DNA of 64,000 nt, from the NCBI RefSeq assembly GCF_000383675.1, contig NZ_KB911823.1, forward strand, positions 125,095-189,094. The letters are read 5' to 3'. Positions 17,426 through 31,591 of the stretch are shown in pieces. The stretch comes from Terracoccus sp. 273MFTsu3.1. Lineage in GTDB: Bacteria; Actinomycetota; Actinomycetes; Actinomycetales; Dermatophilaceae. The notes under the pieces are model-generated. The model saw only the letters and a program-made list of their open reading frames with translations, ran no database searches and was not told where the DNA came from. The translations under genes and the position numbers were made by a program. Each line of letters starts with the position of its first letter. Position 1 is the stretch's first letter.

Positions 17426-17669
17426 CCCGGTGGTAGCCGGAGGCGGCGCGGGTCGGTGACGCTCCGAGGCGACCCGGGGGAGGGGGAAGGCGGGCCGGCT
17501 GTCTCAGGATGCATGAAAGGCGATGACGCATTTCCGACTGATTGCATAGGAATTAGGGAAGGTGGCGACGTGACGTTGCCGCCGAAAAGGCTTGAGAGGC
17601 AAAGGAACTCGCGCCCTGGCGTCGCTCGGTGAGGGTGCCTCGCCCGAGTGGAAATGCCCGATTCGGCGA
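17426..17669. other. Intergenic stretch with lower G+C, no gene recognised
   Basis: Part of a 441-bp gap between the divergent acyltransferase gene and the leader peptide. The part around 17510-17620 is clearly poorer in G+C than its surroundings. I see no convincing coding frame, repeat or hairpin; it may hold regulatory sites for the operon that begins at 17670. Confidence 0.4.
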
Positions 17670-17699
17670 TTGACGGGGCGTCGGCGGGCTTCGTAGTGT
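17670..17699 (+). promoter_or_regulatory. Promoter of the SAM-IV operon (TTGACG-18-TAGTGT)
   Basis: TTGACG at 17670-17675 and TAGTGT at 17694-17699 are 18 nt apart. The predicted transcript start (near 17706) falls right at the 5' edge of the riboswitch, so the two predictions support each other. Confidence 0.7.
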
Positions 17700-17707
17700 C
17701 GTCGACA

Positions 17708-17819
17708 GGTCAAGAGTTCCAGCGTCAAGCCCCGGCTCGCTGGACAGCAACCCTCCACCGCGGCGGGGTGCTCCGGGTGAGGACCAGGCCGTCGCCAGCA
17801 GGCGACGGCAAGCGCGGAC
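17708..17819 (+). ncRNA. SAM-IV riboswitch
   Basis: The RNA has the order of elements of actinobacterial SAM-IV aptamers: a closing helix GGTC (17708) with GACC (17782-17785); CAGCGTCAAGCCCCGGCT then GCAACCCTCC; GGGGTGCTCCGGGTGA; a variable 9-bp hairpin with loop AGCA (17788-17809); and the 3' pseudoknot strand GGCAAGCGCGG. I recognised it by near identity to known SAM-IV sequences. It should sense S-adenosylmethionine, so the genes below would be off when methionine/SAM is plentiful. A covariance search with the SAM-IV model would settle it. Confidence 0.9.
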
Positions 17820-17853
17820 TCGCAGTGGTCGGGTCCAGGACCGAGGAGCCGAC

Positions 17854-17937
17854 ATGGCGCGCACGACGAGCACCCATCTGGTGCTCCGCCGCCACGTCGA
17901 CCTGCTCCGCGTGTCCAGCGCGCTCTGTCGTCCCTGA
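17854..17937 (+). CDS. Cysteine-type leader peptide (27 residues)
   Basis: A short frame with a GAGGAG ribosome site encodes MARTTSTHLVLRRHVDLLR followed by VSSALCRP. Actinobacterial sulfur-gene leader peptides share the motif RHVDLxRVxSxLC, with a Cys near the end, and are thought to sense cysteine supply through ribosome stalling. Here it lies between the SAM-IV riboswitch and the ABC permease, about 150 nt before the latter. That puts two sulfur signals, SAM and probably cysteine, in series on one operon. Confidence 0.8.
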   Translation: MARTTSTHLVLRRHVDLLRVSSALCRP

Positions 17938-18088
17938 CGACGTCCTGCCCGCCGAGACCTCGGTCGGCCGGTCGGCGCCCGTGGCCCAGCGGTGATCCCG
18001 CAGCCCCGTCGCCAGCACGCACCCCCGCAGCCGCTCCCTGCCTCCCGTCCGGTGGCGGGTGCCCGAGCCATCCCTTCAGGAGCCTCAC

Positions 18089-19192
18089 GTGCCATCCCTC
18101 TCCACGGTCCGGCGCTCAGCGCCGCCGACCACCACGTCCTCGACCTCGTCGTCGGCGCCTCCGCCGGCCGAGCCCCCGCAGCCCCCGCAGCCCCCGCAGC
18201 CCCCTCGAGCGTCGACCTCCGCCGCCCCGGCTGCTGCGGAGCCGGCAGCAGACTCGGTCCCGCTGTCCGGAGGCGGGCCGGTCCTCACCGTCGTCCCGCG
18301 CCGCAACCCGTGGACCTGGGTCGGGGTCGCCGGCGTCGGGCTGCTCCTGGCGATGTTCGTCAACGGCCTCGTCACCAACCCCGGCTGGGACTGGGCGACC
18401 TTCGGTCGCTACTTCGCCACCGAGACCGTCATCCGGGCCCTCGGCACGACGATCCAGCTCACCGTCCTGGGAACCGTGGCCGGCTTCGCCCTCGGGCTCG
18501 TGCTCGCAGCCATGCGACTGTCGTCCAACGCGTTCCTGCGGACCGTCGCATGGGCCTACATCTGGGCGTTCCGGTCGATCCCGCTCATCGTCCAGCTGCT
18601 CTTCTGGTTCAACATCGCCTACCTCTACCAGACGATCAGCGTCGGGCTGCCGTTCGGGCCGTCCTTCGGAAGCGTCGAGACCAACGACCTCTTCGGAGCG
18701 CTCGGCGCCGCAGTGCTCGGCCTCGCCCTGCACCAGGCGGCCTACGCCGCCGAGATCATCCGCGGCGGCATCCTCTCCGTCGACGAGGGGCAGCGAGAGG
18801 CGGCCTCGGCGCTCGGCATCCCGCGGCGGCGCCAGTTCACGAGGATCGTCCTGCCGCAGGCGATGCGCTCGATCCTGCCCAACGCCGCCAACGAGGTGAT
18901 CAGCCTCTTCAAGGGCACCTCGATCGTCTCGGTGCTCGCGATCCCGGAGCTCTTCTACCAGGTGCAGGTGATCTACGGCCGCAACTCCCGGGTCGTGCCG
19001 CTGCTGCTCGTGGCGACGGTCTGGTACATCATCCTCACGACGCTCCTGTCGATCGGGCAGTACTACGTCGAGCGGCACTTCGCCCGAGGCAGTGCCCGGT
19101 CCCTGCCACCCACACCGCTCCAGCGGCTCCGGGCCCGGTGGGCCGGCATCGCGACCCAGGCAGCCCGTCGTCCCGAGGGGGTCTCCCGATGA
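18089..19192 (+). CDS. Amino-acid ABC transporter permease (HisM/GlnP type) with Pro-rich N-terminus
   Basis: A 367-residue permease. About 75 N-terminal residues are low-complexity Ser/Thr/Pro/Ala with a [11 protein letters not shown] run; the membrane domain starts at RRNPWTWVG. The EAA loop reads [29 protein letters not shown] when its two halves ([14 protein letters not shown] and [15 protein letters not shown]) are joined, as in polar amino-acid importers. GTG 18089 is preceded by CAGGAG. It is probably the homodimeric membrane channel, since only one permease gene is present. It overlaps the ATPase gene by ATGA. The riboswitch context suggests a cystine-, methionine- or organosulfur-type substrate. 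Confidence 0.85.
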
Positions 19193-19959
19193 CCGCCCCC
19201 ACCGCAGCCGTCGACCTCCGCGGGGTCACGAAGTCGTTCGGCGCCCACCGGGTGCTCGACGACGTCGACCTCGAGCTGGCGGAGGGCACCGTCACCGTCA
19301 TCCTCGGCCCCTCCGGGTCGGGCAAGTCCACGCTGCTGCGCACCATCAACCACCTCGAGAAGACCGACCGGGGGCAGGTCCGGGTCAACGGTACCCTCAT
19401 CGGCTATCGACAGGCGGGTGACCGACTGCACGAGCTGCCCGAGCGCGACATCCTGCGCCAGCGCAGCCGCATCGGCTTCGTCTTCCAGCAGTTCAACCTC
19501 TTCCCGCACCTCACCGTCCTCGAGAACGTCGTCGAGGCGCCGGTGTCGGCGCAGCACCGCAGGCGCTCCGAGGTCGAGGTCGAGGCCAGGGCGCTCCTGG
19601 AGCGAGTCGGTCTGGCGGACAAGGCTGCCGCCTACCCGCGGCAGCTCTCCGGTGGTCAGCAGCAGCGAGTCGCCATCGCCCGAGCGCTCGCGCTGCAGCC
19701 CGACGTCATCCTCTTCGACGAGCCGACCTCGGCCCTCGACCCGGAGCTCGTCGGTGAGGTCCTCGCCGTGATCAAGGAGCTCGCCCGCGACGGGGCCACC
19801 CTCGTCGTCGTCACGCACGAGATCGGCTTCGCCCGCGAGGTCGCGGACACCGTCGTCTTCCTCGACGGCGGCCGCGTCGTCGAGCAGGGACCGCCCGAGC
19901 AGGTCATCGACCACTCTGCCCACGAACGCACACGAGCCTTCCTCGACCGCGTTCTCTGA
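19189..19959 (+). CDS. Amino-acid ABC transporter ATP-binding protein (GlnQ type)
   Basis: A 256-residue ATPase with Walker [10 protein letters not shown] (about 42-50), Q-loop [14 protein letters not shown], signature LSGGQQQR, Walker B VILFDEP and switch His in VVVTHEIGF. The Q-loop wording is typical of polar amino-acid importers. The start overlaps the permease stop. About 75 bp separate it from the first binding-protein gene, with a small GGCCCG/CGGGCC hairpin (19982-19996) that could allow different expression of the binding proteins. Confidence 0.9.
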
Positions 19960-20035
19960 CACCACCACCCCGCACCCCTCAGGCCCGTACCGGGCCACCC
20001 ACGACTCGCACCCCCGGGTGCCGAGAGGAGTCCTC

Positions 20036-21040
20036 ATGCCCGCACGTCCCCACCCCGTCCACCGCCCGACGACGTATGCCGTCACCGTCCTCGCCGTCGC
20101 CGCCTCCGTCGCGCTCGCCGCCTGCTCCGGGGCAGCCGAGGCCAGCTCGGGCGGGGCGGCCGGCTCGACCGCTCAGGCAGTCCCGGCCGTCAACACCTCG
20201 CCGGACCAGAAGCGCATCACGGCCACGAAGGACGAGAGGGCCGCGGCCCTGCTGCCCGCGGCCGTCCGAGCGCGGGGCACGATCACGGCCGCCAACGCCG
20301 GAGCGGGGGGCGGCACGCCGCCGCTCGTCTTCACCGCCGACGACGACAAGACCGTCATCGGTGTCGAGGTCGACCTCGCGCACCTCTTCGCCGACAAGCT
20401 CGGCCTCCGGGTCGAGACGCCGGCGACGAGCTGGGAGAACGTCTTCCTCGGCATCGACTCGGGGCGCTACGACGTCGCCCTGACCAACGTCACGGTCACG
20501 GAGGAGCGCAAGGAGAAGTACGACTTCGCGACGTACCGCAAGGACGACCTCGCCTTCGAGGCTCCCAAGGGCGGCACGTGGAGGGTCACGAGCGGCAAGG
20601 ACATCGCCGGCAAGACCATCGCCGTCGGGTCCGGCACCAACCAGGAGAAGATCCTGCTCGACTGGAACGAGGCCAACGTCAAGGCCGGCCTCCCGCCCGC
20701 CGAGGTGAAGTACTTCCAGTCGCAGACGGACTACTACCTGGCCCTGGCGTCGCACCGGATCGACGCGTACTTCGGCCCGAACCCGAGCGTCGCCTACCAC
20801 GTCGCCACGGCCGGCCAGACCGAGGCCATCGGCCACTTCTCGGGTGCCGGTGACTCCCTCCAGGGACTCATCGCCGTGCTGACGAGGAAGGGCTCGGGTC
20901 TCGCCGCGCCCTATGCCGCCGCCATCAACTCGGCGATCGCCGACGGCAGCTACGCGAAGGTCCTCCAGCGCTGGAACCTCAGCAGCGAGGGCCTCGAGAA
21001 GTCCGAGATCAACCCGCCCGGCCTGCCCAAGACCGACTGA
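20036..21040 (+). CDS. Substrate-binding lipoprotein, family 3 (copy 1)
   Basis: A 334-residue periplasmic-type binding protein with a signal peptide ending in the lipobox LAAC (Cys about 28), so it is a lipid-anchored surface protein. The SBP_bac_3 fold is shown by PLVFTADDDKTVIGVEVDLAHLFADKLG, FLGIDSGRYDVALTNVTVTEERKEKYDFATY and LALASHRIDAYFGPNP. GAGAGGAG precedes ATG 20036. The binding proteins 20036 and 21071 are clearly related; two paralogues on one transporter suggest two ligands or affinities. Confidence 0.88.
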   Translation: MPARPHPVHRPTTYAVTVLAVAASVALAACSGAAEASSGGAAGSTAQAVPAVNTSPDQKRITATKDERAAALLPAAVRARGTITAANAGAGGGTPPLVFTADDDKTVIGVEVDLAHLFADKLGLRVETPATSWENVFLGIDSGRYDVALTNVTVTEERKEKYDFATYRKDDLAFEAPKGGTWRVTSGKDIAGKTIAVGSGTNQEKILLDWNEANVKAGLPPAEVKYFQSQTDYYLALASHRIDAYFGPNPSVAYHVATAGQTEAIGHFSGAGDSLQGLIAVLTRKGSGLAAPYAAAINSAIADGSYAKVLQRWNLSSEGLEKSEINPPGLPKTD

Positions 21041-21070
21041 GCCCCTTCACCATCCAGGAGACGAACCACC

Positions 21071-22102
21071 ATGCAGCACACTAAGACCCACGCGCATGCC
21101 CGACGCCGCGCACTCGTCGTCGCGGCCGCCGTCCTGTCGACCGTCGGCGTGCTCGGAGCGTGCGCCGACCCGGTCGGCACCGGGACGACGCAGGTGGACC
21201 CCGAGGCCCTCGGCGACTCGAAGGTCCTCCCGGTCTCGTTCGACACCTCGGCCGACGCGAAGCGCCCGGTGGGCACCCTGCACCCGGAGATCGCGGCGAC
21301 GCTGCCGGCCGACGTCAGGGCCAGGGGCACCCTGGTCATCGGCAGCGGCGGCGCGGGCGGCGGCATACCCCCTCTGGCGTTCACGGCAGACGACAACAAG
21401 ACCCCGATCGGGGTGGAGGTCGACGTGGCCCACCTCGTCGCGGACGTCCTCGGTCTCGAGCCCGACGTGCAGACGACGAGCTGGGAGAACCTCTTCATCG
21501 GCATCGACTCGGGCAAGTACCAGGTCGCGATCTCCAACGTCGGCGTCTCGGAGGAACGCAAGGAGAAGTACGACTTCGCGACGTACCGGCTCGGGTTGCA
21601 CGCGTTCGAGGCGAAGAAGGGCTCGACGCTGCACGTGCGGGGGCCGGCCGACATCTCGGGCAAGAAGGTGGCCGTCGGGTCGGGCACCCTGCAGGAGGCG
21701 ATCCTGCTGCGCTGGAACGAGGAGAACGAGAAGGCCGGACGGGCACCTGCCGAGCTCGTCTACTACCAGGGCACGACGGAGTACTACCTCGCCCTCGACT
21801 CCGGCCGCATCGACCTCTACCTCGGCCCGAACCCCACGGCGACGTGCCACGTCGTCACGGCCGGGAAGACGCAGATCGTCGGCACCGTGTCGTCGAGCTT
21901 CCCGATCCCCGGGAAGGTCGGGGTCCTGACGAAGCGGGGCAACGGCCTGGCCAAGCCCATCTCCGACGCCATCAACGCCGCCATCGCCGACGGCAGCTAC
22001 GGGAAGGTCCTCGCCCGCTGGGGTCTCACGGCCGAGGCGGTGCCGGCCTCCGAGGTCAACCCGGCAGGGCTGCCCAAGCCGACCGAGACCTCCGGCAGGT
22101 GA
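21071..22102 (+). CDS. Substrate-binding lipoprotein, family 3 (copy 2)
   Basis: A 343-residue paralogue of the preceding gene with lipobox LGAC and the same landmarks: PLAFTADDNKTPIGVEVDV, GIDSGKYQVAISNVGVSEER and YYLALDSGRIDLYLGPNP. AGGAG lies about 10 bases before ATG 21071. Differences cluster in the ligand lobe (for example LGLHAFEAKKGSTLH against KDDLAFEAPKGGTWR), so different ligand preference is likely. It is followed after 9 bp by the FMN reductase-acetyltransferase gene. Confidence 0.88.
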   Translation: MQHTKTHAHARRRALVVAAAVLSTVGVLGACADPVGTGTTQVDPEALGDSKVLPVSFDTSADAKRPVGTLHPEIAATLPADVRARGTLVIGSGGAGGGIPPLAFTADDNKTPIGVEVDVAHLVADVLGLEPDVQTTSWENLFIGIDSGKYQVAISNVGVSEERKEKYDFATYRLGLHAFEAKKGSTLHVRGPADISGKKVAVGSGTLQEAILLRWNEENEKAGRAPAELVYYQGTTEYYLALDSGRIDLYLGPNPTATCHVVTAGKTQIVGTVSSSFPIPGKVGVLTKRGNGLAKPISDAINAAIADGSYGKVLARWGLTAEAVPASEVNPAGLPKPTETSGR

Positions 22103-22111
22103 GGCACTGAC

Positions 22112-23245
22112 ATGGCCACCATCGTCACCCTCGCATCGAGCCCGTCCGCGGCCTCGCGGACGGATGCCGTCCTCGGCCACATCGAACGCCGTCTCACCGT
22201 GCGCGGTCACGACGTCCAGCGTGTCGTCATCCGTGACCTGCCCGCCGGAGCGCTGCTGGCCGCCGACGTGACCGACCCGCAGATCGCTGCGGTCGTCGCG
22301 CAGATCGACGCGGCGGACGCCGTCGTGGTCACGACCCCCGTCTACAAGGCGGCCTACACCGGACTGCTCAAGACGCTGCTCGACCTGCTCCCGCAGTACG
22401 CGTTGCGCGGCAAGTCGGTGCTGCCCGTCGCCACCGGCGGCAGCGCGGCGCACGTCCTCGCCGTCGACTACGCGCTGCGGCCGGTCCTCGTGTCGTTGGG
22501 CGCCGAGCACGTCACCCAGGGCTGGTTCGTCCTCGCCTCCGACGTGCAGGTCTTCCCGTCCGACGGGGGTGTGCTGCTCTCGGAGGCCGCGTCCCGAGCT
22601 CTTCACCAGGTGACGGAGTCGTTCCTGACGCACGTCGCGCGGCACCGACGCGAGGAGTCGCCCGCCCTCGATGACGACGTCGTGCTGCGGGTGTCCCCGC
22701 ACGACGACGTCGCGGCCCCGTTGCTCGAGGACCTCGTCGTCGAGTACGGCACGCGCTACGGCCTGTCGACGCCGCACACCCGGCTGACGGAGGTCCCGGT
22801 CAGCGACTTCGAGGGGCCCCACGGGGCGTTCGTCGTCATCCTCCGAGGCGGGCGGACGATCGCCGGCGGTGCGATCCGGCGCTACGACGACCACACGGCC
22901 GAGGTGAAGCGGGTCTGGACCCATGCCCAGTTCCGGCGACAGGGGCTCGCTCGCCGCGTCCTGCTCGAGCTCGAGAAGGCCGCGGCGGGCCTGGGCTACC
23001 GGAGGATCCACCTCACCACGGGTCCGCGCCAGCCGGAGGCCCTTGCCCTCTACCTCGCGGCCGGCTACCTGCCGGCCTTCGACCTGCACGCCGAGCCTGA
23101 GTCGATCGGCCCACACGCCTTCGACAAGGAGCTGCCCGCCGGGACCGTGCGATCCGCCTCGGCCGCAGACGGATCCGGTCGCTCGATCGTCAGCGGCCCG
23201 GCGACCGCGGCTCTGCGCTCCTACCCGGACTGGGGCGCGGCGTGA
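22112..23245 (+). CDS. NAD(P)H:FMN reductase - GNAT acetyltransferase fusion
   Basis: A 377-residue two-domain protein. Residues 1-180 are a flavodoxin-fold FMN reductase of the SsuE/MsuE type: ASSPSAASRTD, VVVTTPVYKAAYTGLLKTLLD and LPVATGGSAAH. Residues 190-345 are a GNAT domain: GGAIRRYDDHTAEVKRVWT, acetyl-CoA loop RRQGLARR, and PEALALYLAAGY. The reductase would feed FMNH2 to the two monooxygenases downstream, and the GNAT would N-acetylate a substrate, as SnaA does for S-substituted cysteines in Bacillus. Having both in one chain is unusual. The stop overlaps the next start (GTGA). Confidence 0.85.
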   Translation: MATIVTLASSPSAASRTDAVLGHIERRLTVRGHDVQRVVIRDLPAGALLAADVTDPQIAAVVAQIDAADAVVVTTPVYKAAYTGLLKTLLDLLPQYALRGKSVLPVATGGSAAHVLAVDYALRPVLVSLGAEHVTQGWFVLASDVQVFPSDGGVLLSEAASRALHQVTESFLTHVARHRREESPALDDDVVLRVSPHDDVAAPLLEDLVVEYGTRYGLSTPHTRLTEVPVSDFEGPHGAFVVILRGGRTIAGGAIRRYDDHTAEVKRVWTHAQFRRQGLARRVLLELEKAAAGLGYRRIHLTTGPRQPEALALYLAAGYLPAFDLHAEPESIGPHAFDKELPAGTVRSASAADGSGRSIVSGPATAALRSYPDWGAA

Positions 23246-25182
23246 CTCACCGACGGATCATCGTCGTCGGCGCCGGGCCACGCGCACTCGGCCTCGTCGA
23301 GCGCATCGGTGCCAATGCCGGCGTGGTGGGCAGCCCGAGGGAGCGGGTGGAGGTGCACGTCGTCGACCCGCACCCACCGGGCGGCGGCCGCATCTGGCGG
23401 ACGGCTCAGTCGCCCCTGCTCTGGATGAACTCCGAGGCGCAGGACGTCACGGTCTTCACCGACGCGTCCGTCACCTGCGAGGGTCCGGTCGTGCCCGGGC
23501 CGTCGCTCGCCGAGTGGGCGGCCGGCCCCGACGCGAGCGCAGCCGCGGCGGCCCTGTCGGCGCGTGACTTCGCGCCGCGTGTCGTCCAGGCCGACTACCT
23601 CGAGTGGGCCTGGCGACGAGTCGTCTCGACCCTGCCGGGGCACGTCACCGTCCACGTCCATGCGGACCGGGCCGTCGAGCTGCACGGGTCCGACGCCGAG
23701 GGTGGTCAGCAGCAGGTCACCCTCGCCCGTGGTCCGCTGCTCGAGGGCGACCTCGTCGTGCTCGCCCAGGGCTACCTCGACCAGGCGCCCGCGCCGGACG
23801 AGCAGCGGCTGCTCGACGCCGCCGTATCCCAGGGGCTCACCTACGTCCCGCCGGGTCACACAGCAGACCTCGACCTCGAGGGCCTGCGTCCGGGCGAGCC
23901 CGTCGTCGTGCGCGGCATGGGTCTGGCCTTCATCGACCTCGTCGTCCTCCTCGGCGAGGGCCGCGGCGGGACCTTCACCGGCGAGGGCGCACAACTGACG
24001 TACCACCCGAGCGGACGCGAGCCGGTCCTGCACGTCGGGTCCCGTCGAGGCGTGCCGTACCACGCCAAGCTCGGCTACGAGGTGCGAGCCGCCGCCTACG
24101 GACCAGCGCCCTTGCGACACCTGACCCGTGAGCGCCTCACCGCCCTCGGTGGGGGCGCTGCGGCCCTCGACTACCGCACCCAGGTCTGGCCACTCGTCGT
24201 GCTCGAGCTCGCGGCGGCGCACTACCGCCGGCTCTTCGAAGCCCATCCCGAGCGGACCCGCGGAACCTTCGAGGCGCTGGAGCGCGCCCTGGTCACGGCC
24301 GACGCGACCAGCGGTGAGCTCACAGCCGTCGCCCTGACGCACCTCGCAGACCCCGAGGACGTCTTCGACATCGGGCGGATCGACCGCCCGCTCCGTGCGG
24401 TCACCACCGACGCCACGCCGCCCGCCGACGTCGAGCGGGTCGTCGCCGAGCACATCCGCCTCGACGTCGCCCGGCGCGCCGACCCGTCGCGGTCGAGCGA
24501 CCGCGCCGTCTTCGACACGCTCCTCGGGGTGTATGCCGCCCTGGCGGAGCTCGTGGTGTCGGGCCGCCTCCGCGACGACGACCGGGTCCGCCACGTCGAG
24601 GGCCACTTCCACGGGCTCTTCTCGTTCCTCGCGAGCGGGCCGCCGCCTCGCCGGCTCGCCGAGCTGCTCGCGCTGCACCGGGCCGGCGTCGTCCGCTTCC
24701 TCGGCCCCGACCTCGAGCTCGGGATCGAGGACGGTGCCTTCGTCGGGAGGTCCGGAGACCGGGTGGTTCGGGCGCGGGCCGCCGTGGACGCGCGGCTGCC
24801 CCGCCCCGACAGCGCCCTCGTCACCGACCCCCTCGTCGCCCGGCTGCTGGCCGGGGGCGAGCTGCGCTCGCGACCCGTCGTGGCCGCCGACGGCACAGCC
24901 CTCGGTGCGGGGCAGCTCGTCGCCGATGCCAGGGCGCGCGCCGTCCGTGCCGACGGCACCGTGCACCCACGCCGGTACCTCCTCGGGCCCGCCGTGTCGG
25001 GCTCTGCCGGCGCCGGAGGCTTCTCCCGACCCCGCTTCAACGGGCCCGGCTTCCGCCAGAACGACGCCGTCGCCCGCGACCTGCTCACCGCCGCCGTGAG
25101 CGACCGAGCCGCCGCCCGCCTCCGACTCGCCCCGCACCCCGTTCCCACCACGAGAGACAAGGACCACCGCCATGCCAGTTGA
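23242..25182 (+). CDS. FAD/NAD(P)-binding protein (NAD_binding_9 type)
   Basis: A 646-residue flavoprotein that starts with a Rossmann motif IIVVGAGPRALGLVERIG and continues VDPHPPGGGRIWRTAQSPLLWMNS, typical of the PF13454 group. A second nucleotide motif, VVVRGMGLAFIDLVVLLGEGR, lies near residue 223. The C-terminus (FSRPRFNGPGFRQNDAVARDLL) is conserved in the group. No biochemical role is established that I know of. In this operon a redox step on an organosulfur substrate, or electron supply to the monooxygenases, is plausible. It overlaps its upstream neighbour by 4 bp and the next gene by 11 bp. Confidence 0.75.
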   Translation: MTHRRIIVVGAGPRALGLVERIGANAGVVGSPRERVEVHVVDPHPPGGGRIWRTAQSPLLWMNSEAQDVTVFTDASVTCEGPVVPGPSLAEWAAGPDASAAAAALSARDFAPRVVQADYLEWAWRRVVSTLPGHVTVHVHADRAVELHGSDAEGGQQQVTLARGPLLEGDLVVLAQGYLDQAPAPDEQRLLDAAVSQGLTYVPPGHTADLDLEGLRPGEPVVVRGMGLAFIDLVVLLGEGRGGTFTGEGAQLTYHPSGREPVLHVGSRRGVPYHAKLGYEVRAAAYGPAPLRHLTRERLTALGGGAAALDYRTQVWPLVVLELAAAHYRRLFEAHPERTRGTFEALERALVTADATSGELTAVALTHLADPEDVFDIGRIDRPLRAVTTDATPPADVERVVAEHIRLDVARRADPSRSSDRAVFDTLLGVYAALAELVVSGRLRDDDRVRHVEGHFHGLFSFLASGPPPRRLAELLALHRAGVVRFLGPDLELGIEDGAFVGRSGDRVVRARAAVDARLPRPDSALVTDPLVARLLAGGELRSRPVVAADGTALGAGQLVADARARAVRADGTVHPRRYLLGPAVSGSAGAGGFSRPRFNGPGFRQNDAVARDLLTAAVSDRAAARLRLAPHPVPTTRDKDHRHAS

Positions 25183-26308
25183 GTTCCTCGGCATCGCCGC
25201 CAACCACGACGGCACGGAGACGAGGGCCCGCAGCGCGGGCGCCCTCGACCTGCCGTATGCCGTCAAGCTCGCCCGCGCCCACGAGGACAACGGGTGGGAC
25301 CGCGTCCTCTTCGCCTACCACTCCGGCTCGCCCGACCCCGCCCAGGTCGCCGCGCACGTGGCGGCCCACACCGAGCGGCTCAACCTCGTCGTGGCTCACC
25401 GGCCCAACACCGCCTACCCGACGCTGACGGCCAAGACCTTCGCCACGCTCGACCACATCAGCAACGGTCGCTTCGAGGTCCACGTCATCACCGGCGGCAG
25501 CACGGCGGACCAGGCCGCCGAGGGTGACCACCTCGACAAGGACGCCCGCTACGCCCGCACCCGCGAGTTCATCCAGATCCTCAAGCTGGCCTGGACGAGC
25601 GACGAGCCGTTCGACTTCGACGGCGAGCACTACCGGTTCGAGAACTTCCTCGCCGACATCAAGCCGCTCCAGACCCCGCGCCCACGGATCTCCTTCGGCG
25701 GGTCGAGCCCGGCGGCATACGCCGTGGGTGCACAGGAGGCGGACGTCTTCGCCCTCTGGGGCGAGCCACTCGCCGGGACCGCGGAGCAGATCGAGACGAT
25801 CCGCGCCGCGGCCGCTGCCGCCGGGCGCCCGCTCCCGACGGTCCAGGTCGCGTTCCGTCCGATCCTCGGCGCCACGGACGAGCTGGCCTGGGAGAAGGCC
25901 GAGCGAACGCTCGGCGAGATCCACGCGCACCAGGCCGCAGACGCCTCCAGTGCGCGGGGACGACTGCGCCGCAACGGGTCCCAGCCGGAGAACACAGGGT
26001 CCCAGCGGCTGCTCGCGGCCGCGGAGGCGGGGGAGCGCCACGACCGCGCCCTCTGGACCGCGACGTCCGCCGCGACCGGTGGCGGCGGCAACTCCACGGC
26101 CCTCGTCGGCACGCCCGAGACCGTCGCCGCGGCGCTGCTCGACTACTACGACCTCGGGGTGCGCATCTTCTCCGCCCGCGGCTACCACCTCTACGACGAC
26201 GCCGTGGACGTCGGGCGGCACGTCATCCCGCTCGTGCGCGAGGAGGTCGCGCGTCGGGAGGCGGCGAGCGCCGTGACGACGACGGCCGACCGTGAGGCCG
26301 TCGCATGA
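25172..26308 (+). CDS. Luciferase-like (LLM) flavin monooxygenase, SsuD/NtaA-like
   Basis: A 378-residue TIM-barrel monooxygenase of the alkanesulfonate-monooxygenase branch: LVVAHRPNTAYPTLTAKTFATLDHIS then GRFEVHVITGGS, DKDARYARTREFIQILKLAW and ISFGGSSPAAY. Such enzymes use FMNH2 and oxygen to cleave C-S bonds in sulfonates or thioethers. The reductase domain encoded two genes upstream is the obvious FMNH2 source. The start lies inside the preceding gene, with a GAGAGACAAGGA ribosome site. Its position beside a GNAT and importer recalls CmoJ-type S-alkylcysteine catabolism. Confidence 0.85.
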   Translation: MPVEFLGIAANHDGTETRARSAGALDLPYAVKLARAHEDNGWDRVLFAYHSGSPDPAQVAAHVAAHTERLNLVVAHRPNTAYPTLTAKTFATLDHISNGRFEVHVITGGSTADQAAEGDHLDKDARYARTREFIQILKLAWTSDEPFDFDGEHYRFENFLADIKPLQTPRPRISFGGSSPAAYAVGAQEADVFALWGEPLAGTAEQIETIRAAAAAAGRPLPTVQVAFRPILGATDELAWEKAERTLGEIHAHQAADASSARGRLRRNGSQPENTGSQRLLAAAEAGERHDRALWTATSAATGGGGNSTALVGTPETVAAALLDYYDLGVRIFSARGYHLYDDAVDVGRHVIPLVREEVARREAASAVTTTADREAVA

Positions 26309-27075
26309 GCGCCAGGGGCGAGTGGCTCGCGTGGCGGGCCGCTCGTGAGAGCGATCTCGTCCAGGAGCACGGCTGGCTCTCGCTGACCGGCTTCGCGTGG
26401 CTGCCGGACCGCCCGACGAGCCTGCCCGGCCTGCCGGGCCGGTGGTGGGCCGACGGGGCGGGTGCGATCGTCGAAGCGACCGCGAGCGAGGGGCTGAGCG
26501 TCGACGGCGAGCCCGTCGTCGGGTGGGCCACGGCGGACGTCGAGGAGGCAGGGTCGCGGCTCTGGGTGCGGCACGGCGAACGCGTCGTCGAGCTGCTCCG
26601 GAGGGGTGGGCGGCTCGCGGTGCGGACCCGGGACCCGCAGGCCACGACGCGTCGGGCCTTCGACGGCGTGCCGACGTGGGAGCACGATCCGGACTGGGTG
26701 CGCCCCGGACGGTTCACGGCCGCAGACCCTCCGGCGCGGGTGGAGGTGCGCACCGCCCGTGACGACCTCGTCCAGCACGCCACCGTCGTCGGCACGGTCG
26801 ACGTCGACATCGATGGGGTGCGGCACCGTCTCAGCGCGGTCGGCGCCGGAGACGGCCTCGGACTCCTCTTCCACGACACGACGAACGGTGCGCTCTCGGC
26901 GCCCTGGCGCACCGTCACGACGTCGGCCCCGGACCCCGACGGCAACGTCGTCGTCGACTTCAACCGGGCCGTCAACCTCCCCTTCGCCTTCACCGCGTAC
27001 GGCACGTGCCCCGGGCCGGTGACGGGCAACCGGATCGCCGTGCCCGTCACAGCCGGCGAGAAGCGGCCGGCATGA
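26305..27075 (+). CDS. DUF1684 protein
   Basis: A 256-residue cytosolic protein. The pattern WRAARESDLVQEHGWLSLTGFAWL near the N-terminus and DFNRAVNLPFAFTAYGTCP then GNRIAVPVTAGEK at the C-terminus identify DUF1684, a family with a conserved C-terminal block but no firmly assigned activity known to me. It overlaps both neighbours by 4 bp (ATGA), so it is made in step with the two monooxygenases. A hydrolytic or deacetylating step is a guess from pathway logic only. Confidence 0.75.
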   Translation: MSARGEWLAWRAARESDLVQEHGWLSLTGFAWLPDRPTSLPGLPGRWWADGAGAIVEATASEGLSVDGEPVVGWATADVEEAGSRLWVRHGERVVELLRRGGRLAVRTRDPQATTRRAFDGVPTWEHDPDWVRPGRFTAADPPARVEVRTARDDLVQHATVVGTVDVDIDGVRHRLSAVGAGDGLGLLFHDTTNGALSAPWRTVTTSAPDPDGNVVVDFNRAVNLPFAFTAYGTCPGPVTGNRIAVPVTAGEKRPA

Positions 27076-28130
27076 GGTTCTGCACGTACACCTTGCTCGA
27101 CACGAGCCCTGACCCGGTGACGGGGGTTGCCCGCTCCCAGACGGAGGCGTTCGAGCACGTCACGCGCCAGGCCGTCTGGGCCGAGGAGCTCGGTTTCGAC
27201 GCGTTCGGGGTGGGGGAGCGGCACGCCCAGCGCTTCGTCTCGTCCTCGCCGCCCGTCGTCCTCGCGCACGTGGCAGCGCACACGTCCCGCATCCGCCTCA
27301 TGACGACCGTGACCGTGCTCTCGCTCCTCGACCCCGTCCGCGTCGCCGAGGACTACGCGACGCTCGACCACCTGAGCGGTGGGCGGCTCGACGTCGTCAT
27401 CGGCAAGGGCAACGACCCCGACCAGAACGCTCTCTTCGGCTACGAGCTCGAGGGCCAGTGGGAGCGCAACGCCGAGAAGTACGAGCTGTTGCGCCGGCTC
27501 TGGCGCGAGGAGCGGGTCACGTGGTCGGGACGCTTCCGGCCCCCGCTCGTGGACGCGACGACCCAACCGCGCCCGCTCCAGCAGCCCATCCCCGTCTGGC
27601 ACGGCTCGGCGAGCTCGACCGAGTCGACCGAGCTCGCCGCTCGCTGGGGCGACCCGCTCTTCTCCGCCAACGGCTTCCACCCCCTGGAGACGTACGCCGC
27701 CCTCGTCCGGCACTACCGCGAGCGGTGGGAGGCGCACGGCCACGACCCCGCCGACGCGGTCGTCGGTGCCGGCTTCCTCGGGCTCCTCGTCGCCGACACG
27801 ACCCAGGAGGCGCTGCGTCTCTACGAGCCGGCGTTCGAGGCGTTCCGGCGCTCGCCGGGGGCCGTGCACAACCGTCTGCCCTTCTCGACGCTGGAGGAGT
27901 ACGCCCGCGACAGCTCCGCGTTGATCGGCTCGCCCGCCGAGGTCGTCGACAAGATCGGGCGCTACCGGGAGGCCTTCGGCCACGAGCTCTCCGGTGTCTC
28001 GCTCGACGTGCCGGGCCTGCCGGAGAACGTGACCCGGCGCAGCGTCGAGCGGTTCTTCGCAAACGTGGCCCCCGTCCTGCGGCGAGAGCACCCGTCACGA
28101 CAGGAGTTCAGACACACGTTGAATGCCTGA
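27072..28130 (+). CDS. Luciferase-like (LLM) flavin monooxygenase, CE1758/YtmO-like
   Basis: A 352-residue bacterial-luciferase-fold enzyme: FCTYTLLDTSPDPVTG, AEELGFDAFGVGERHAQRFVSSSPPVVL, DYATLDHLSGGRLDVVIGKGND and PVWHGSASSTEST. It is a different branch from the SsuD-like protein encoded two genes upstream. Bacillus organosulfur operons also pair two LLM enzymes (YtmO and YtnJ types). It is the last gene of the coupled set that began at 22112; 46 bp later a new promoter serves the Ugp-like operon. Confidence 0.82.
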   Translation: MRFCTYTLLDTSPDPVTGVARSQTEAFEHVTRQAVWAEELGFDAFGVGERHAQRFVSSSPPVVLAHVAAHTSRIRLMTTVTVLSLLDPVRVAEDYATLDHLSGGRLDVVIGKGNDPDQNALFGYELEGQWERNAEKYELLRRLWREERVTWSGRFRPPLVDATTQPRPLQQPIPVWHGSASSTESTELAARWGDPLFSANGFHPLETYAALVRHYRERWEAHGHDPADAVVGAGFLGLLVADTTQEALRLYEPAFEAFRRSPGAVHNRLPFSTLEEYARDSSALIGSPAEVVDKIGRYREAFGHELSGVSLDVPGLPENVTRRSVERFFANVAPVLRREHPSRQEFRHTLNA

Positions 28131-28176: not shown

Positions 28177-29139
28177 GTGCAGTCATCGGTGACCCAACCC
28201 CAGAGCGCCACGCCCGGGTCCGGCGGACCCCCGCCCGAGGTGGGGCCACCCCCGCGACGGTCGAGCGGGCGGGCCTGGGAGTGGTCGCTCGCGGCCCTCC
28301 TGCTGCTGCCCAACCTCGTGCTGCTCATCGTCTTCACGTACCGTCCGCTCCTCGACAACATCAGGCTGTCGTTCACCGACTGGAACATCTCCTCGCCCAT
28401 CGCCAACCCCGTGGGCCTGTCCAACTACATCGAGTGGTTCGGGCGTGACGACACGAAGATCATCGTGCGCAACACCCTCGTCTTCACCGTCGCCACCGTC
28501 GGCATCTCCATGGCGGTCGGGCTCGGCCTCGCCCTGCTGCTCGACCAGAAGCTCAAGGGGCGCAACATCGTCCGCTCGGTCGTCTTCGCGCCGTTCGTCA
28601 TCTCGGGCGCCGCGATCGGCATCGCGTTCCAGTTCGTCTTCGACCCGCAGTTCGGGCTCGTCCGTGACCTGCTCGCACGGATCGGGGTCGCCTCGCCCGA
28701 CTTCTACCAGCAGCCGGGCTGGGCGCTCTTCATGGTGACCGTCACCTACATCTGGAAGAACCTCGGCTACACCTTCGTCATCTACCTCGCCGCCCTCCAG
28801 GGTCGGCGAGCCGACCTCGACGAGGCGGCCGAGATCGACGGCGCCACCGCGTGGACCCGCTTCCGACGCGTCCTCATGCCCCAGCTGCGCCCGACGACGT
28901 TCTTCCTGTCGATCACCGTGCTGCTCAGCTCGGTCCAGGTCTTCGACATCATCAACGTCATGACCCGCGGCGGACCGCAGGGCAACGGCACGACCACCCT
29001 CGTCTACCAGGTCTACCAGGAGACGTTCGTCAACCAGCGCGCCGGCTACGGCGCCACCGTCGCCACCGTCATGTTCGTCATCCTGCTCGCCGTCACGGTG
29101 GTCCAGGTGCGCTTCATGGACAGGGGGAAGCAGGCATGA
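28177..29139 (+). CDS. Carbohydrate/glycerol-phosphate ABC permease (UgpA type)
   Basis: A 320-residue permease with six helices after a Pro/Gly-rich N-terminus. The helix-1 region LLLLPNLVLLIVFTYRPLLDNIRLSFTDW and the EAA loop DEAAEIDGATAWTRFRRVLMPQL (split as DEAAEIDGATAW and TRFRRVLMPQL) are typical of CUT1 sugar importers. It pairs with the next gene, which it overlaps by ATGA. The diesterase gene at the end of the operon suggests glycerol-3-phosphate or glycerophosphodiesters as the substrate. Confidence 0.87.
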   Translation: MQSSVTQPQSATPGSGGPPPEVGPPPRRSSGRAWEWSLAALLLLPNLVLLIVFTYRPLLDNIRLSFTDWNISSPIANPVGLSNYIEWFGRDDTKIIVRNTLVFTVATVGISMAVGLGLALLLDQKLKGRNIVRSVVFAPFVISGAAIGIAFQFVFDPQFGLVRDLLARIGVASPDFYQQPGWALFMVTVTYIWKNLGYTFVIYLAALQGRRADLDEAAEIDGATAWTRFRRVLMPQLRPTTFFLSITVLLSSVQVFDIINVMTRGGPQGNGTTTLVYQVYQETFVNQRAGYGATVATVMFVILLAVTVVQVRFMDRGKQA

Positions 29140-30068
29140 GCACCTCCACCATCGTCGGGACCCGCGACGACGAGCAGGTCCCGCCGGCCGGCGGGCAGCG
29201 CCGGCGTCGACGCACGTCGCACCAGGTCGAGGCCTCGGCGCACCACCGCGGACCGATGTGGACCGTCGCGGGCTACGCCGGCATGGTCCTCGTCGTCCTC
29301 GTCATCGCCGTCCCCCTCTTCTGGATCCTCCTCACCTCCTTCAAGGAGCGCGGGGACATCTACGTCCGGCCGGCCCAGTGGTGGCCGGACCCCCCGACGG
29401 GCCAGAACTACAGCGAGCTGACGACCCGCATCCCGTTCTTCGACTACGTCCGCAACTCGGTCATCATCACGTCGGCGACGTCGGTCGCCAAGATCGTGCT
29501 CGGCGTCATCAGCGCGTACGCCCTGTCGCTGCTGCGCTTCCCGGGACGCTCGATCGTCTTCCTCGTCGTCATCGCGGCGCTGATGGTGCCCAACCAGATC
29601 ACGGTGATCAGCAACTACGCCCTCGTCGCGCAGCTCGGGTGGCGCAACACCTTCCAGGGCATCATCATCCCGCTCGCGGGCGTCGCCTTCGGCACCTTCC
29701 TCATGCGCAACCAGTTCCTCAGCCTGCCCGGCGAGATCATCGAGGCCGCGCGCCTCGACGGCGCCGGACCCATGAAGCTGCTGTGGCGCGTCGTCATGCC
29801 GATGTCGTGGCCGACCCTCGTGGCCTTCGCGCTCATCACCGTCGTCAACGAGTGGAACGAGTACCTCTGGCCGTTCCTCATGTCCGACGACGAGACGACG
29901 GCGCCGTTGCCGGTCGGCCTGACGTTCCTCCAGAACAACGACGGCGTGACGAACTGGGGGCCGGTCATGGCAGGCACCGTCCTGGCCATGCTGCCGATCC
30001 TCGTCCTCTTCCTCTTCCTCCAGCGACAGATGATCAAGGGCCTCACGGCGGGGGCCGTGAAGAGCTGA
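29136..30068 (+). CDS. Carbohydrate/glycerol-phosphate ABC permease (UgpE type)
   Basis: A 310-residue second permease with a basic cytosolic N-terminus (RRRRRT) and six helices. EAARLDGAGPMKLLWRVVMPMSWP contains the EAA loop (key part EAARLDGAGPMKLLWRVVMP), and WNEYLWPFL marks the CUT1 family. It is coupled to the UgpA-type gene by a 4-bp overlap and would form the heterodimeric channel with it. Sixty-eight bases separate it from the binding-protein gene, without an obvious hairpin. Confidence 0.88.
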   Translation: MSTSTIVGTRDDEQVPPAGGQRRRRRTSHQVEASAHHRGPMWTVAGYAGMVLVVLVIAVPLFWILLTSFKERGDIYVRPAQWWPDPPTGQNYSELTTRIPFFDYVRNSVIITSATSVAKIVLGVISAYALSLLRFPGRSIVFLVVIAALMVPNQITVISNYALVAQLGWRNTFQGIIIPLAGVAFGTFLMRNQFLSLPGEIIEAARLDGAGPMKLLWRVVMPMSWPTLVAFALITVVNEWNEYLWPFLMSDDETTAPLPVGLTFLQNNDGVTNWGPVMAGTVLAMLPILVLFLFLQRQMIKGLTAGAVKS

Positions 30069-30136
30069 AACCGGCTCTGCCGCATGCCGATCCATCCCCA
30101 CGACCCCACCCACCACCACAGGGAAAGGCACCATCC

Positions 30137-31438
30137 ATGAACGAGTTCTCACGTCGAGGCTTCCTCGGCCTCGCCGGCGCGGCCGGCGTCGCCGGTCTCG
30201 CGGCCTGCGCGGGCACGGGTACGTCCCCGACGACGGGCGGCGGTGGCGGCTCGAGCAACACCATCGAGTTCTGGAGCAACCACCCCGGCAACAGCAAGCC
30301 GGTCGAGCAGCAGATCATCAAGGCCTTCGAGGCGGCCAACCCGAGCCTCAAGGTCAAGCTCGTCGACGCCGGCAAGAACTACGAGGAGGTCGCGCAGAAG
30401 TTCAACGCGTCGCTCGCCGGCGGCTCGCTGCCCGACGTCGTCGTCGTCTCGGACGTCACGTGGTTCAACTTCGCGCTCAACAAGCAGCTGAGCCCGCTCG
30501 ACGAGCTGCTCTCGACGGCCAAGATCGACACGAGCGACTACGTCGACGCGCTGTACAACGACTACAACCTCGACGACAAGCACTACGCCCTCCCGTTCTC
30601 GCGGTCGACGCCGCTCTTCTACTACAACAAGGACCTCTGGAAGGCCGCCGGTCTCGAGGACCGCGGCCCGAAGGACTGGGACGAGTTCCTCACGTGGGCA
30701 CCGAAGCTCAAGGCGGCCGCCGGCTCCGACAAGATCGTCATGGAGCTGCCCGACGGCTCGAACTACCTCGACTGGGTCTTCCAGAACATCGTGTGGGGCT
30801 ACGGCGGTGCCTACTCGAAGGAGTGGACGCCGACCTTCTCGGACCCCAACACGGTCAAGGCGGGCACCTACCTGCAGAACCTCGCCAAGGACGGCTACCT
30901 CAAGCTGTCCAAGGACCCGGCTCCCGACTTCACGGCCGGCATCGTCGGCTGCAGCATGATGTCGACCGGTTCGCTCGGCGGCGTGGCGAAGGACGCGAAG
31001 TTCCCCGTGGGCACGGCGTTCCTGCCGGGTGACGGCAACTGCCCCACCGGCGGTGCGGGTGTCGGCATCCCTGCCAACATCCCCGACGACCGCAAGAAGA
31101 ACGCGCTGAAGTTCATCGAGTTCCTCACCAACGCCCAGAACACCGTCACCTTCACGCAGGCCACCGGCTACATGCCCGTGCGCAAGTCCGCCGTGGACCT
31201 GCCGGAGGAGAAGGCCTTCCTCGAGAAGAACCCCAACGCCCAGACGGCGATCGAGCAGCTGCCCAAGACGCGGTCGCAGGACAACGTCCGCGTGCTGCTG
31301 CCCGGCGGCGGCGCCCGGATCGGCAAGGGCCTCGACCAGATCGTCCAGGGCCAGGACGTCGCGACCGTCTTCAAGGGGCTCGACGCCGAGAGCCAGCAGG
31401 TCTTCGACTCGCAGATCAAGAGCAAGCTCGGCGCCTGA
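30137..31438 (+). CDS. Extracellular solute-binding lipoprotein (UgpB type)
   Basis: A 433-residue family-1 binding protein. The N-terminus has a twin-arginine-like SRRGFLG followed by a lipobox LAAC (Cys about 25), so it may be exported folded by Tat and lipid-anchored. IEFWSNHPGNSKPVEQQIIKAFEAANP begins the mature domain; FYYNKDLWKAAGL and VGIPANIPDDRKKNALKFIEFLT are typical of CUT1 binding proteins. GGGAAAGG lies upstream of ATG 30137. It is followed by a hairpin before the ATPase gene, consistent with higher production of the binding protein. Confidence 0.87.
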   Translation: MNEFSRRGFLGLAGAAGVAGLAACAGTGTSPTTGGGGGSSNTIEFWSNHPGNSKPVEQQIIKAFEAANPSLKVKLVDAGKNYEEVAQKFNASLAGGSLPDVVVVSDVTWFNFALNKQLSPLDELLSTAKIDTSDYVDALYNDYNLDDKHYALPFSRSTPLFYYNKDLWKAAGLEDRGPKDWDEFLTWAPKLKAAAGSDKIVMELPDGSNYLDWVFQNIVWGYGGAYSKEWTPTFSDPNTVKAGTYLQNLAKDGYLKLSKDPAPDFTAGIVGCSMMSTGSLGGVAKDAKFPVGTAFLPGDGNCPTGGAGVGIPANIPDDRKKNALKFIEFLTNAQNTVTFTQATGYMPVRKSAVDLPEEKAFLEKNPNAQTAIEQLPKTRSQDNVRVLLPGGGARIGKGLDQIVQGQDVATVFKGLDAESQQVFDSQIKSKLGA

Positions 31439-31466
31439 CGCGCCGCCGCACCAACCCCGGTCGTAT

Positions 31467-31502
31467 GCCGTCCGGCGGGCCCGCTCGGACCCGCCGGACG
31501 GC
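31467..31502 (+). terminator. Intra-operon hairpin after the binding-protein gene
   Basis: A perfect 13-bp stem (GCCGTCCGGCGGG and complement) with a 10-nt loop and no U-tract lies between the binding-protein and ATPase genes. A GTATGCC heptamer overlaps its 5' edge. It may cause partial termination or protect the upstream mRNA. Confidence 0.65.
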
Positions 31503-31591
31503 TCCGGAGTGACGTGGAGACGGCGAGCACGCTCGCGCCCTCCTGTACCCGGCTCCAGACCCCCGAACCAGAACGACCCGAGAGGCCACCG

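Follow-up and report, generated by a model that had tools for sequence, protein, structure and literature searches.

What is the function of the nine co-oriented genes at 18089-28130 (+ strand) in a stretch of 64,000 nucleotides from the soil actinobacterium Terracoccus sp. 273MFTsu3.1 (contig NZ_KB911823.1, positions 125,095 to 189,094; this whole stretch is called the window hereafter)? According to whole-window gene calls and profile scans, they encode an ATP-binding cassette (ABC) importer of the amino-acid type with two substrate-binding lipoproteins (SBP1 and SBP2), a flavin mononucleotide (FMN) reductase fused to a GNAT domain, a monooxygenase using flavin adenine dinucleotide (FAD) and nicotinamide adenine dinucleotide phosphate (NADP), two luciferase-like monooxygenases (LLM1 and LLM2) and a DUF1684 protein. 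We consider it reasonably probable that this operon recovers sulfur from compounds which resemble amino acids and are S-substituted, when S-adenosylmethionine (SAM) and cysteine are both low. Support for a role in sulfur salvage comes from a SAM-IV riboswitch with a cysteine-type leader behind it, from a regulon which also contains metX, metY and a SufS-like gene, and from gene neighbourhoods that recur among relatives. The substrates would most likely be uncharged S-alkyl or S-aryl cysteines, either free or already N-acetylated.

Tandem control and the SAM-IV regulon

An earlier note, drawn up from the letters of this DNA, had placed the operon behind a sulfur-sensing leader, and this leader is indeed a SAM-IV riboswitch (17708..17820, + strand; RF00634, 112.7 bits against a gathering threshold of 38), which lies just outside 18089-28130 and precedes the same operon in all seven family relatives examined. 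Between the riboswitch and the permease gene we found a second control element that the note did not contain, a leader peptide open reading frame of 27 residues (17854..17937, + strand; MARTTSTHLVLRRHVDLLRVSSALCRP). This putative cysteine attenuator passes NF042934 (33.7 bits, cut-off 27) and also matches the models of the Cys-rich leaders Ms4527A and Ms5788A, below their cut-offs. With these actinobacterial cysteine leader peptides it shares, besides NF042934, a cysteine codon near the stop, and it differs from them in sitting directly behind a SAM-IV riboswitch. A leader of the same type follows the riboswitch in 8/8 operons, those of the window and the seven relatives, by a search pattern that was loosened stepwise after some matches had been seen, so that our leader counts are not blind. 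In mycobacteria, attenuation in response to cysteine is exerted by polycysteine short reading frames (Canestrari et al., as described in an excerpt of PMC9031893), and we infer the same kind of cysteine sensing for the leader peptide of the window. The operon would then be controlled by SAM and, probably, by cysteine.

To which other genes does the riboswitch connect the operon? All 45 SAM-IV sites reported for the eight operon-bearing genomes (5 + 4 + 5 + 6 + 5 + 8 + 8 + 4, five being those of the window genome) were read, and the downstream genes were named by blastp against the window-genome proteins; the search of the seven relatives used stricter filters, by which weak sites may be lost. 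The sites precede the operon (8), metX (8), metY (8), the SufS-like gene (7), either a cysteine-dioxygenase (CDO)-type gene plus an NtaA-type LLM or just the LLM pair (6), FMN reductase-GNAT (2), SBP1 (2), an ABC ATPase gene about 1.1 kb downstream (3) and, once, no recognised gene. As judged on the window-genome proteins, MetX, MetY and CDO_I are over their cut-offs and the SufS-like protein is below its own. The leader stands before salvage genes at 14 of the 18 sites concerned, namely at 8/8 operon, 4/6 CDO/LLM, 2/2 FMN reductase-GNAT and 0/2 SBP1 sites; it was found at none of the 26 metX, metY, SufS-like and ABC sites, nor at the site without a recognised gene. Tandem RNA control thus sets the salvage genes apart from the methionine genes inside one regulon. 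The second SAM-IV operon of the window genome (L029:2430-6617; G000 contig C8:110429-114616) contains a CDO-type gene, two NtaA/DmoA-type LLM genes and an FMN reductase gene behind the same leader type.

The strongest evidence comes from the way in which the parts are rearranged. Two relatives (G089 and G090) have an operon without SBP1 and FMN reductase-GNAT, and each of these lies behind its own SAM-IV elsewhere in the genome, as does an LLM pair. In Kribbella the LLM pair is found inside the operon, the second LLM of the Terrabacter pair being 61.5-63.2% identical to three Kribbella copies. Since the parts are split and regrouped under one riboswitch class, they probably belong to a common pathway.

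Some further sites of the census deserve mention. At L215 and L217, in two relatives whose operon is without it, a relative of FMN reductase-GNAT lies behind SAM-IV plus leader. The ABC ATPases about 1.1 kb after SAM-IV (L209, L216, L223) are 44-48% identical to the operon ATPase, and the site without a recognised downstream gene (L202) is a weak match of 84.2 bits. Away from the five SAM-IV sites, the window genome has a separate pair of LLM and FMN reductase genes (L034:6866-8637; G000 C4:356865-358636), which by reading, without a profile scan, resembles the CE1758/CE1759 duo. A SAM-IV riboswitch before a cysteine desulfurase gene was already known from Streptomyces lividans, as stated in a passage of PMC8079986.

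Altered substrate sites in two oxygenases

The FAD/NADP monooxygenase (23242..25182, + strand; PF13454) has one strong match in the PDB, the Streptomyces L-aspartate N-hydroxylase (8CP2/8CP5; FzmM, CreE; E 1e-90), with which it shares the FAD/NADP architecture and 39% identity (226/585 aligned residues) over nearly the whole chain. The cofactor and entry-chamber residues R13, W51, N62 and R577 of 8CP2 are kept as R14, W52, N63 and R596. In contrast, R266, R276, R409, R412, N413 and R416 are replaced by K, P, L, Y, A and A; in the crystal structures these six residues bind sulfate ions or L-aspartate (PMC10404684). None of 106 relatives (109 less the distant paralogues L056-L058, duplicates included) has the 8CP2 residue at any of the six positions, position 266 being K in all of them, and the same relatives keep R577 (106), N62 (105), W51 (103) and R13 (96), the remainder being mostly gaps. 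As controls we took four genes (L235, which is the same as L088, L236, L237 and L238) whose products are 59-69% identical to 8CP2. All six residues are retained in these, and none of the neighbouring genes found is labelled LLM, importer, DUF1684 or GNAT. A quick tree also sets 8CP2 and one control apart from the salvage clade (SH-aLRT 99 for 80 rows). We therefore rejected the identity as an L-aspartate N-hydroxylase, the pocket for the side-chain carboxylate being lost in the window protein, which stands in a context of sulfur genes, and kept in the control genes, which stand outside such a context. The window protein would rather be an NADPH monooxygenase of the single-component kind that acts on an amino acid with a non-carboxylate side chain. 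The earlier note had counted it as extra, which it is with respect to the Bacillus set discussed below; it can now be placed as a relative of the L-aspartate N-hydroxylase with an altered substrate site.

A similar loss was seen in LLM1 (25172..26308, + strand). Its closest solved structures are the alkanesulfonate monooxygenases MsuD (7JV3) and SsuD (1NQK, 1M41), and LLM2 (27072..28130, + strand) resembles CE1758. The labels SsuD-like and CE1758-like given previously thus describe relatives and not members of these families, at 208 bits for TIGR03565 (cut-off 518.2) and 275.5 bits for TIGR04036 (cut-off 479.1), respectively. MsuD binds the sulfonate via R225 and an RGGA loop with R296, and replacement of either arginine by alanine leaves no measurable sulfite, as reported in the sections of PMC8234197 on these residues. 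In LLM1, R225 (chain position 248) aligns with Ala227 and R296 (chain position 319) with no arginine, the loop being LWTATSAATGGGGNSTALVG (TGGGGNS). Furthermore, among 38 members of the LLM1 cluster examined, 34 loops were readable and 32 of these have no arginine; the two members with one (L123_2 and L177_2; LVRGGAG) are second SsuD-like genes at loci that contain an altered LLM1 too. With both sulfonate-binding arginines absent from LLM1, alkanesulfonate utilisation was rejected as its function. Because the sulfonate arginines are lost in LLM1 and the carboxylate residues in the FAD/NADP enzyme, the substrates should be uncharged, and the loss of anion-binding residues in both enzymes points to an uncharged S-substituted amino acid.

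Recurrence of the gene set

The neighbourhood sample comprised loci of named genomes (the best 80 of 584 confirmed), 20 top-ranking class loci, the family relatives and the window. For the count of 105 distinct FAD/NADP loci, the duplicates L109, L120, L126 and L133 were dropped, the paralogues L056-L058 were kept and L059 was not counted; the residue counts on the FAD/NADP, LLM1 and DUF1684 alignments still include the four duplicate loci. The gene caller is GC3-based and fails on genomes of lower GC (for L124 and L157 it gave no FAD/NADP gene), and some genes are missing from its calls or cut short. As the loci are best matches, the counts describe close relatives and not the whole family. 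Gene-neighbourhood conservation, which had been proposed as a check, bears out the grouping: within nine genes of the FAD/NADP gene, LLM genes occur at 82 loci, amino-acid ABC genes at 66, DUF1684 at 48, GNAT at 33 and FMN reductase genes at 20. The FAD/NADP gene itself is patchy in the family (12/186 genomes, of which four match only distantly or in part, at 32-36% identity), and a homologue is present in 67/394 class genomes, paralogues included. Across whole genomes, DUF1684 accompanies it in 41/67 genomes, versus 102/327 of those without it (Fisher p 6e-6, a value that ignores relatedness and counts paralogues).

Of 111 sources searched for SAM-IV, 14 gave a match, namely the eight family operons, the duplicate L109 (= L049), Nakamurella L114, L117, Streptosporangium L179, L103 and L146. 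At L114 each half of the gene set has its own SAM-IV. At L179 the riboswitch precedes a gene resembling glutathione S-transferase (GST) and the FAD/NADP gene, and at L103 it lies behind the FAD/NADP and LLM1 genes and ahead of a SufS-like gene, a GST-like gene and two LLM genes. At L146 a different importer comes after it, some 5.9 kb away from the FAD/NADP gene. On this sequence evidence SAM-IV is joined to the gene set in several families and is not universal, and with only 14 of 111 sources containing it, the Kribbella and most of the Streptomyces versions must be controlled otherwise.

Related leaders (RRHIDFxRTSSAIC and similar) were observed at L090, L099, L120, L153, L157, L164, L177 and L182, where, close to the FAD/NADP gene, they adjoin SsuA-type, DszC/SfnB-like or LLM genes; four of these loci, two of them from the same genome, also contain a sulfite-dehydrogenase-like gene. 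Many Streptomyces loci (e.g., L156, L162, L174) have the FAD/NADP gene, the importer genes, the LLM pair and DUF1684 at a single conserved position of the chromosome, between identical flanking genes.

Comparison with Bacillus and the proposed pathway

The Bacillus ytm operon combines an importer with a sulfur response, and the cmo/ytm cluster includes a redoxin for sulfenic acid. The parallel to the Bacillus ytmI/sna operon drawn in the earlier note holds, by homology, for the importer, the N-acetyltransferase, the flavin reductase and the two luciferase-type oxygenases, and fails for the deacetylase and the redoxin. Because neither of these is encoded in the operon, it is not strictly of the Bacillus type. 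The Bacillus subtilis cmo/ytm and scm (yxe) systems, as far as described in portions of PMC10863075 and PMC12757645, share with it the N-acetyltransferase, the flavin supply and the recovery of cysteine, and cmo also the two luciferase-type oxygenases. Unlike both of these systems, the window operon has a SAM-IV plus cysteine-type leader and an FMN reductase fused to GNAT, and it adds an N-hydroxylase-family FAD enzyme and DUF1684. We favour the view that the operon encodes a modified form of the S-alkylcysteine salvage known from Bacillus, carried out by another set of enzymes.

In such a pathway, the importer would take up the S-substituted compound and the GNAT domain would N-acetylate it. 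The SsuE domain would supply FMNH2 to LLM1, LLM2 and the NtaA-type pair of the second SAM-IV operon; LLM1 and LLM2 would oxygenate the sulfur and cut the C-S bond, like CmoO/CmoJ of Bacillus. DUF1684 might reduce the sulfenic acid product via its invariant cysteine, an M20-type amidohydrolase encoded elsewhere would take off the acetyl group, and the FAD/NADP enzyme may oxygenate the nitrogen or sulfur of a neutral amino acid. The recovered sulfur would finally pass to cysteine and to MetX/MetY. The sequence itself shows the parts, the two control elements in tandem, the riboswitch control they have in common and the loss of anion-binding residues in two oxygenases; the substrate class, the order of the steps and what GNAT, DUF1684 and the FAD/NADP enzyme each contribute are inferred. 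A bolder version, in which the N-hydroxylase-family enzyme has been recruited from a family known for natural-product pathways into primary sulfur assimilation and N-oxygenates S-substituted cysteines in a new C-S-cleaving route, DUF1684 is a sulfenic-acid reductase and SAM-IV and the cysteine attenuator form an AND gate, all across Actinobacteria, appears unlikely to be true as a whole.

The DUF1684 protein (26305..27075, + strand; PF07920, 111.4 bits against a gathering threshold of 25) had also been called extra, correctly so relative to the Bacillus set, and is now, as a hypothesis, a candidate thiol-redox protein or sulfenic-acid reductase. C235 is present in 41/41 aligned bacterial DUF1684 proteins. 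The structural model is confident (mean predicted local distance difference test score 94.9), and its only PDB matches with E < 0.001 are haloarchaeal DUF1684 proteins (4FJ4, 4DLH, 2LOK, 2LNU; HVO_1043), which share the C-terminal fold and cysteine; in contrast to these, the window protein has about 110 further N-terminal residues and no first cysteine of the Cx7C pair. This cysteine is present in 27/41 proteins and replaced by Phe or Tyr in 14/41, the window protein included, the 14 cases coming from Terrabacter and relatives, from Kribbella with one genome labelled Streptomyces, and from Nakamurella. For Haloferax, a DUF1684 protein with Cx7C has been proposed to act in a thiol relay, as an excerpt of PMC9426492 states, and the CmoJ reaction gives a sulfenic acid that must be reduced, according to portions of PMC10863075. 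As a side observation, the haloarchaeal 4FJ4 was crystallised with mercury, judging from its entry title, which would fit an exposed cysteine.

As for the acetyl group, the Bacillus pathways run through acetylation, breakdown and deacetylation, the last being served by three redundant enzymes (PMC12757645, in the part describing these pathways). The window genome has 11 M20 hits outside the operon, one of which is an amidohydrolase over its cut-off (325.2 versus 153.75). When the window-genome M20 proteins (7/11 queries in the right frame, as judged by eye) were compared by blastp with 1856 genes from the 111 sources, a single M20-like gene was detected.

Several results weigh against the salvage reading. 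The domain scan detected no deacetylase among the nine operon genes, as the earlier note had stated, and no thioredoxin or glutaredoxin either. There are three oxygenases here and two in the Bacillus pathway, so that at least one is left without an explained step. Because one Cx7C cysteine is missing from the DUF1684 proteins of this genus, there is less to support a thiol relay here than for the proteins of Streptomyces or haloarchaea. GNAT genes were seen near only 33 of the 105 FAD/NADP loci, and 17 loci have no partner gene at all; the restriction of SAM-IV to a minority of the sources searched belongs here too. Finally, a scan of 17500-18200 for promoters and terminators found none, and the folded leader has no significant structure (z -1.51, 8/100 shuffles equally stable), so no attenuator hairpin is claimed.

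How novel would such a pathway be? Among 5.39 million open full-text papers, DUF1684 is named in a single one, which deals with Haloferax under oxidative stress, and the publications found on nitrosuccinate or aspartate N-hydroxylase concern, by their titles and opening abstract lines, natural products, nitro compounds, enzymology and reviews. The portions of sulfur-source studies consulted for these genes list SsuD/SfnG-type entries and LLM genes without assignment. A literature search found no report of cysteine-responsive control together with SAM-IV in the open literature, the query having required a further term, so that work with those two alone could be missed. Within the literature searched, the FAD/NADP protein and DUF1684 are thus probably new to sulfur salvage. 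Our results connect sulfur scavenging by Actinobacteria with DUF1684 and with a flavoprotein family which, in the papers seen, is described from the synthesis of natural products and nitropropionate, and defined gene sets are now available for growth tests.

Alternative explanations

The alternative that survives best would retain the substrates and change the chemistry. The FAD/NADP enzyme would N-oxygenate an S-substituted cysteine, the thiol would be eliminated and the LLMs would oxidise the alkyl thiol to sulfite, with DUF1684 and GNAT in other roles. This would agree with the family chemistry, a repeated N-oxygenation of an alpha-amino acid (PMC10404684, as outlined in part of that paper), with the retention of R13 and R577, which belong to the L-aspartate-binding set, and with the NtaA/DmoA-type LLMs and the cysteine-dioxygenase-type gene in the same SAM-IV regulon. 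However, the presence of a GNAT domain suggests that the nitrogen of the substrate is blocked by acetylation, and the operon contains no lyase, so that we regard the N-oxidative route as quite unlikely.

Could the operon instead serve sulfonate utilisation, with LLM1 as an alkanesulfonate monooxygenase that releases sulfite and the other genes as accessories? The position of LLM1 next to MsuD and SsuD among the solved structures and the SsuE-type reductase, which is over its cut-off, speak in favour of this, as do the genes of SsuA type (over cut-off) and of sulfite-dehydrogenase-like and DszC/SfnB-like type (both below) near the FAD/NADP gene in some relatives. Nevertheless, the two arginines needed for sulfite release by MsuD (PMC8234197, same sections) are lost in LLM1 and the loop arginine in nearly all of its cluster, and the importer is of the amino-acid type and not SsuABC; a sulfonate function is, in our opinion, very unlikely.

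There is also but a faint prospect that the locus is a cystine or methionine importer placed beside unrelated detoxifying oxygenases. Flavin oxygenases often detoxify, and the best models for the permease and the ATPase, below their cut-offs, are cystine transporters; yet in different genera oxygenases, GNAT and DUF1684 are found again and again next to the importer or, standing apart from it, under SAM-IV. The overall identity to 8CP2 might suggest that the FAD/NADP protein is an L-aspartate N-hydroxylase in a pathway to nitrosuccinate or to natural products with an N-N bond. This is hardly credible given the six replaced residues and the control genes, which keep these residues and around which no gene labelled LLM, importer, DUF1684 or GNAT was found.

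Operon layout and neighbouring genes

Returning to the salvage operon, every gene named in the earlier note was found at its place and strand. The permease gene (18089..19192, + strand; PF00528) begins with the GTG proposed there, a start which fits since AGGAG precedes it; its best NCBIfam model is the cystine permease PRK15100 (141.3 bits, below the cut-off of 300). The ATPase gene (19189..19959, + strand) starts with ATG at 19189 and is closest to L-cystine TcyN (311.9 bits, below the cut-off of 406). It is followed by the genes for SBP1 (20018..21040, + strand; PF00497, 80.9 bits), SBP2 (21071..22102, + strand; PF00497, 76.6 bits) and FMN reductase-GNAT (22112..23245, + strand). The reductase part of the latter is of the SsuE type (TIGR03567, 197.1 bits over a cut-off of 164.05); its GNAT domain matches PF00583 (52.1 bits) and has weak matches in the PDB, the best with E 7e-7. 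The description of the genes as nearly all overlapping is accurate for five of the eight junctions, that of permease and ATPase (a common ATGA, 19189-19192) and the four from FMN reductase-GNAT to LLM2; gaps of 58, 30 and 9 bases separate ATPase and SBP1, SBP1 and SBP2, and SBP2 and FMN reductase-GNAT, respectively.

The sugar ABC genes at 28177-32704 were considered and rejected as part of the operon, as they encode another importer class and adjoin the operon only in Terrabacter loci, not in L052-L055. Additionally, SBP1 and SBP2 (20018-22102) match a profile made for StpK7 (MSMEG_1200), a mycobacterial kinase, in its C-terminal half, far below its cut-off and about equally to the cystine-binding model (85.1 versus 90.6 bits for SBP1 and 107.8 versus 97.5 bits for SBP2). 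The closest named genome among the matches listed is that of Terrabacter sp. Root85, filed under Intrasporangiaceae, with a FAD/NADP protein of 93% identity.

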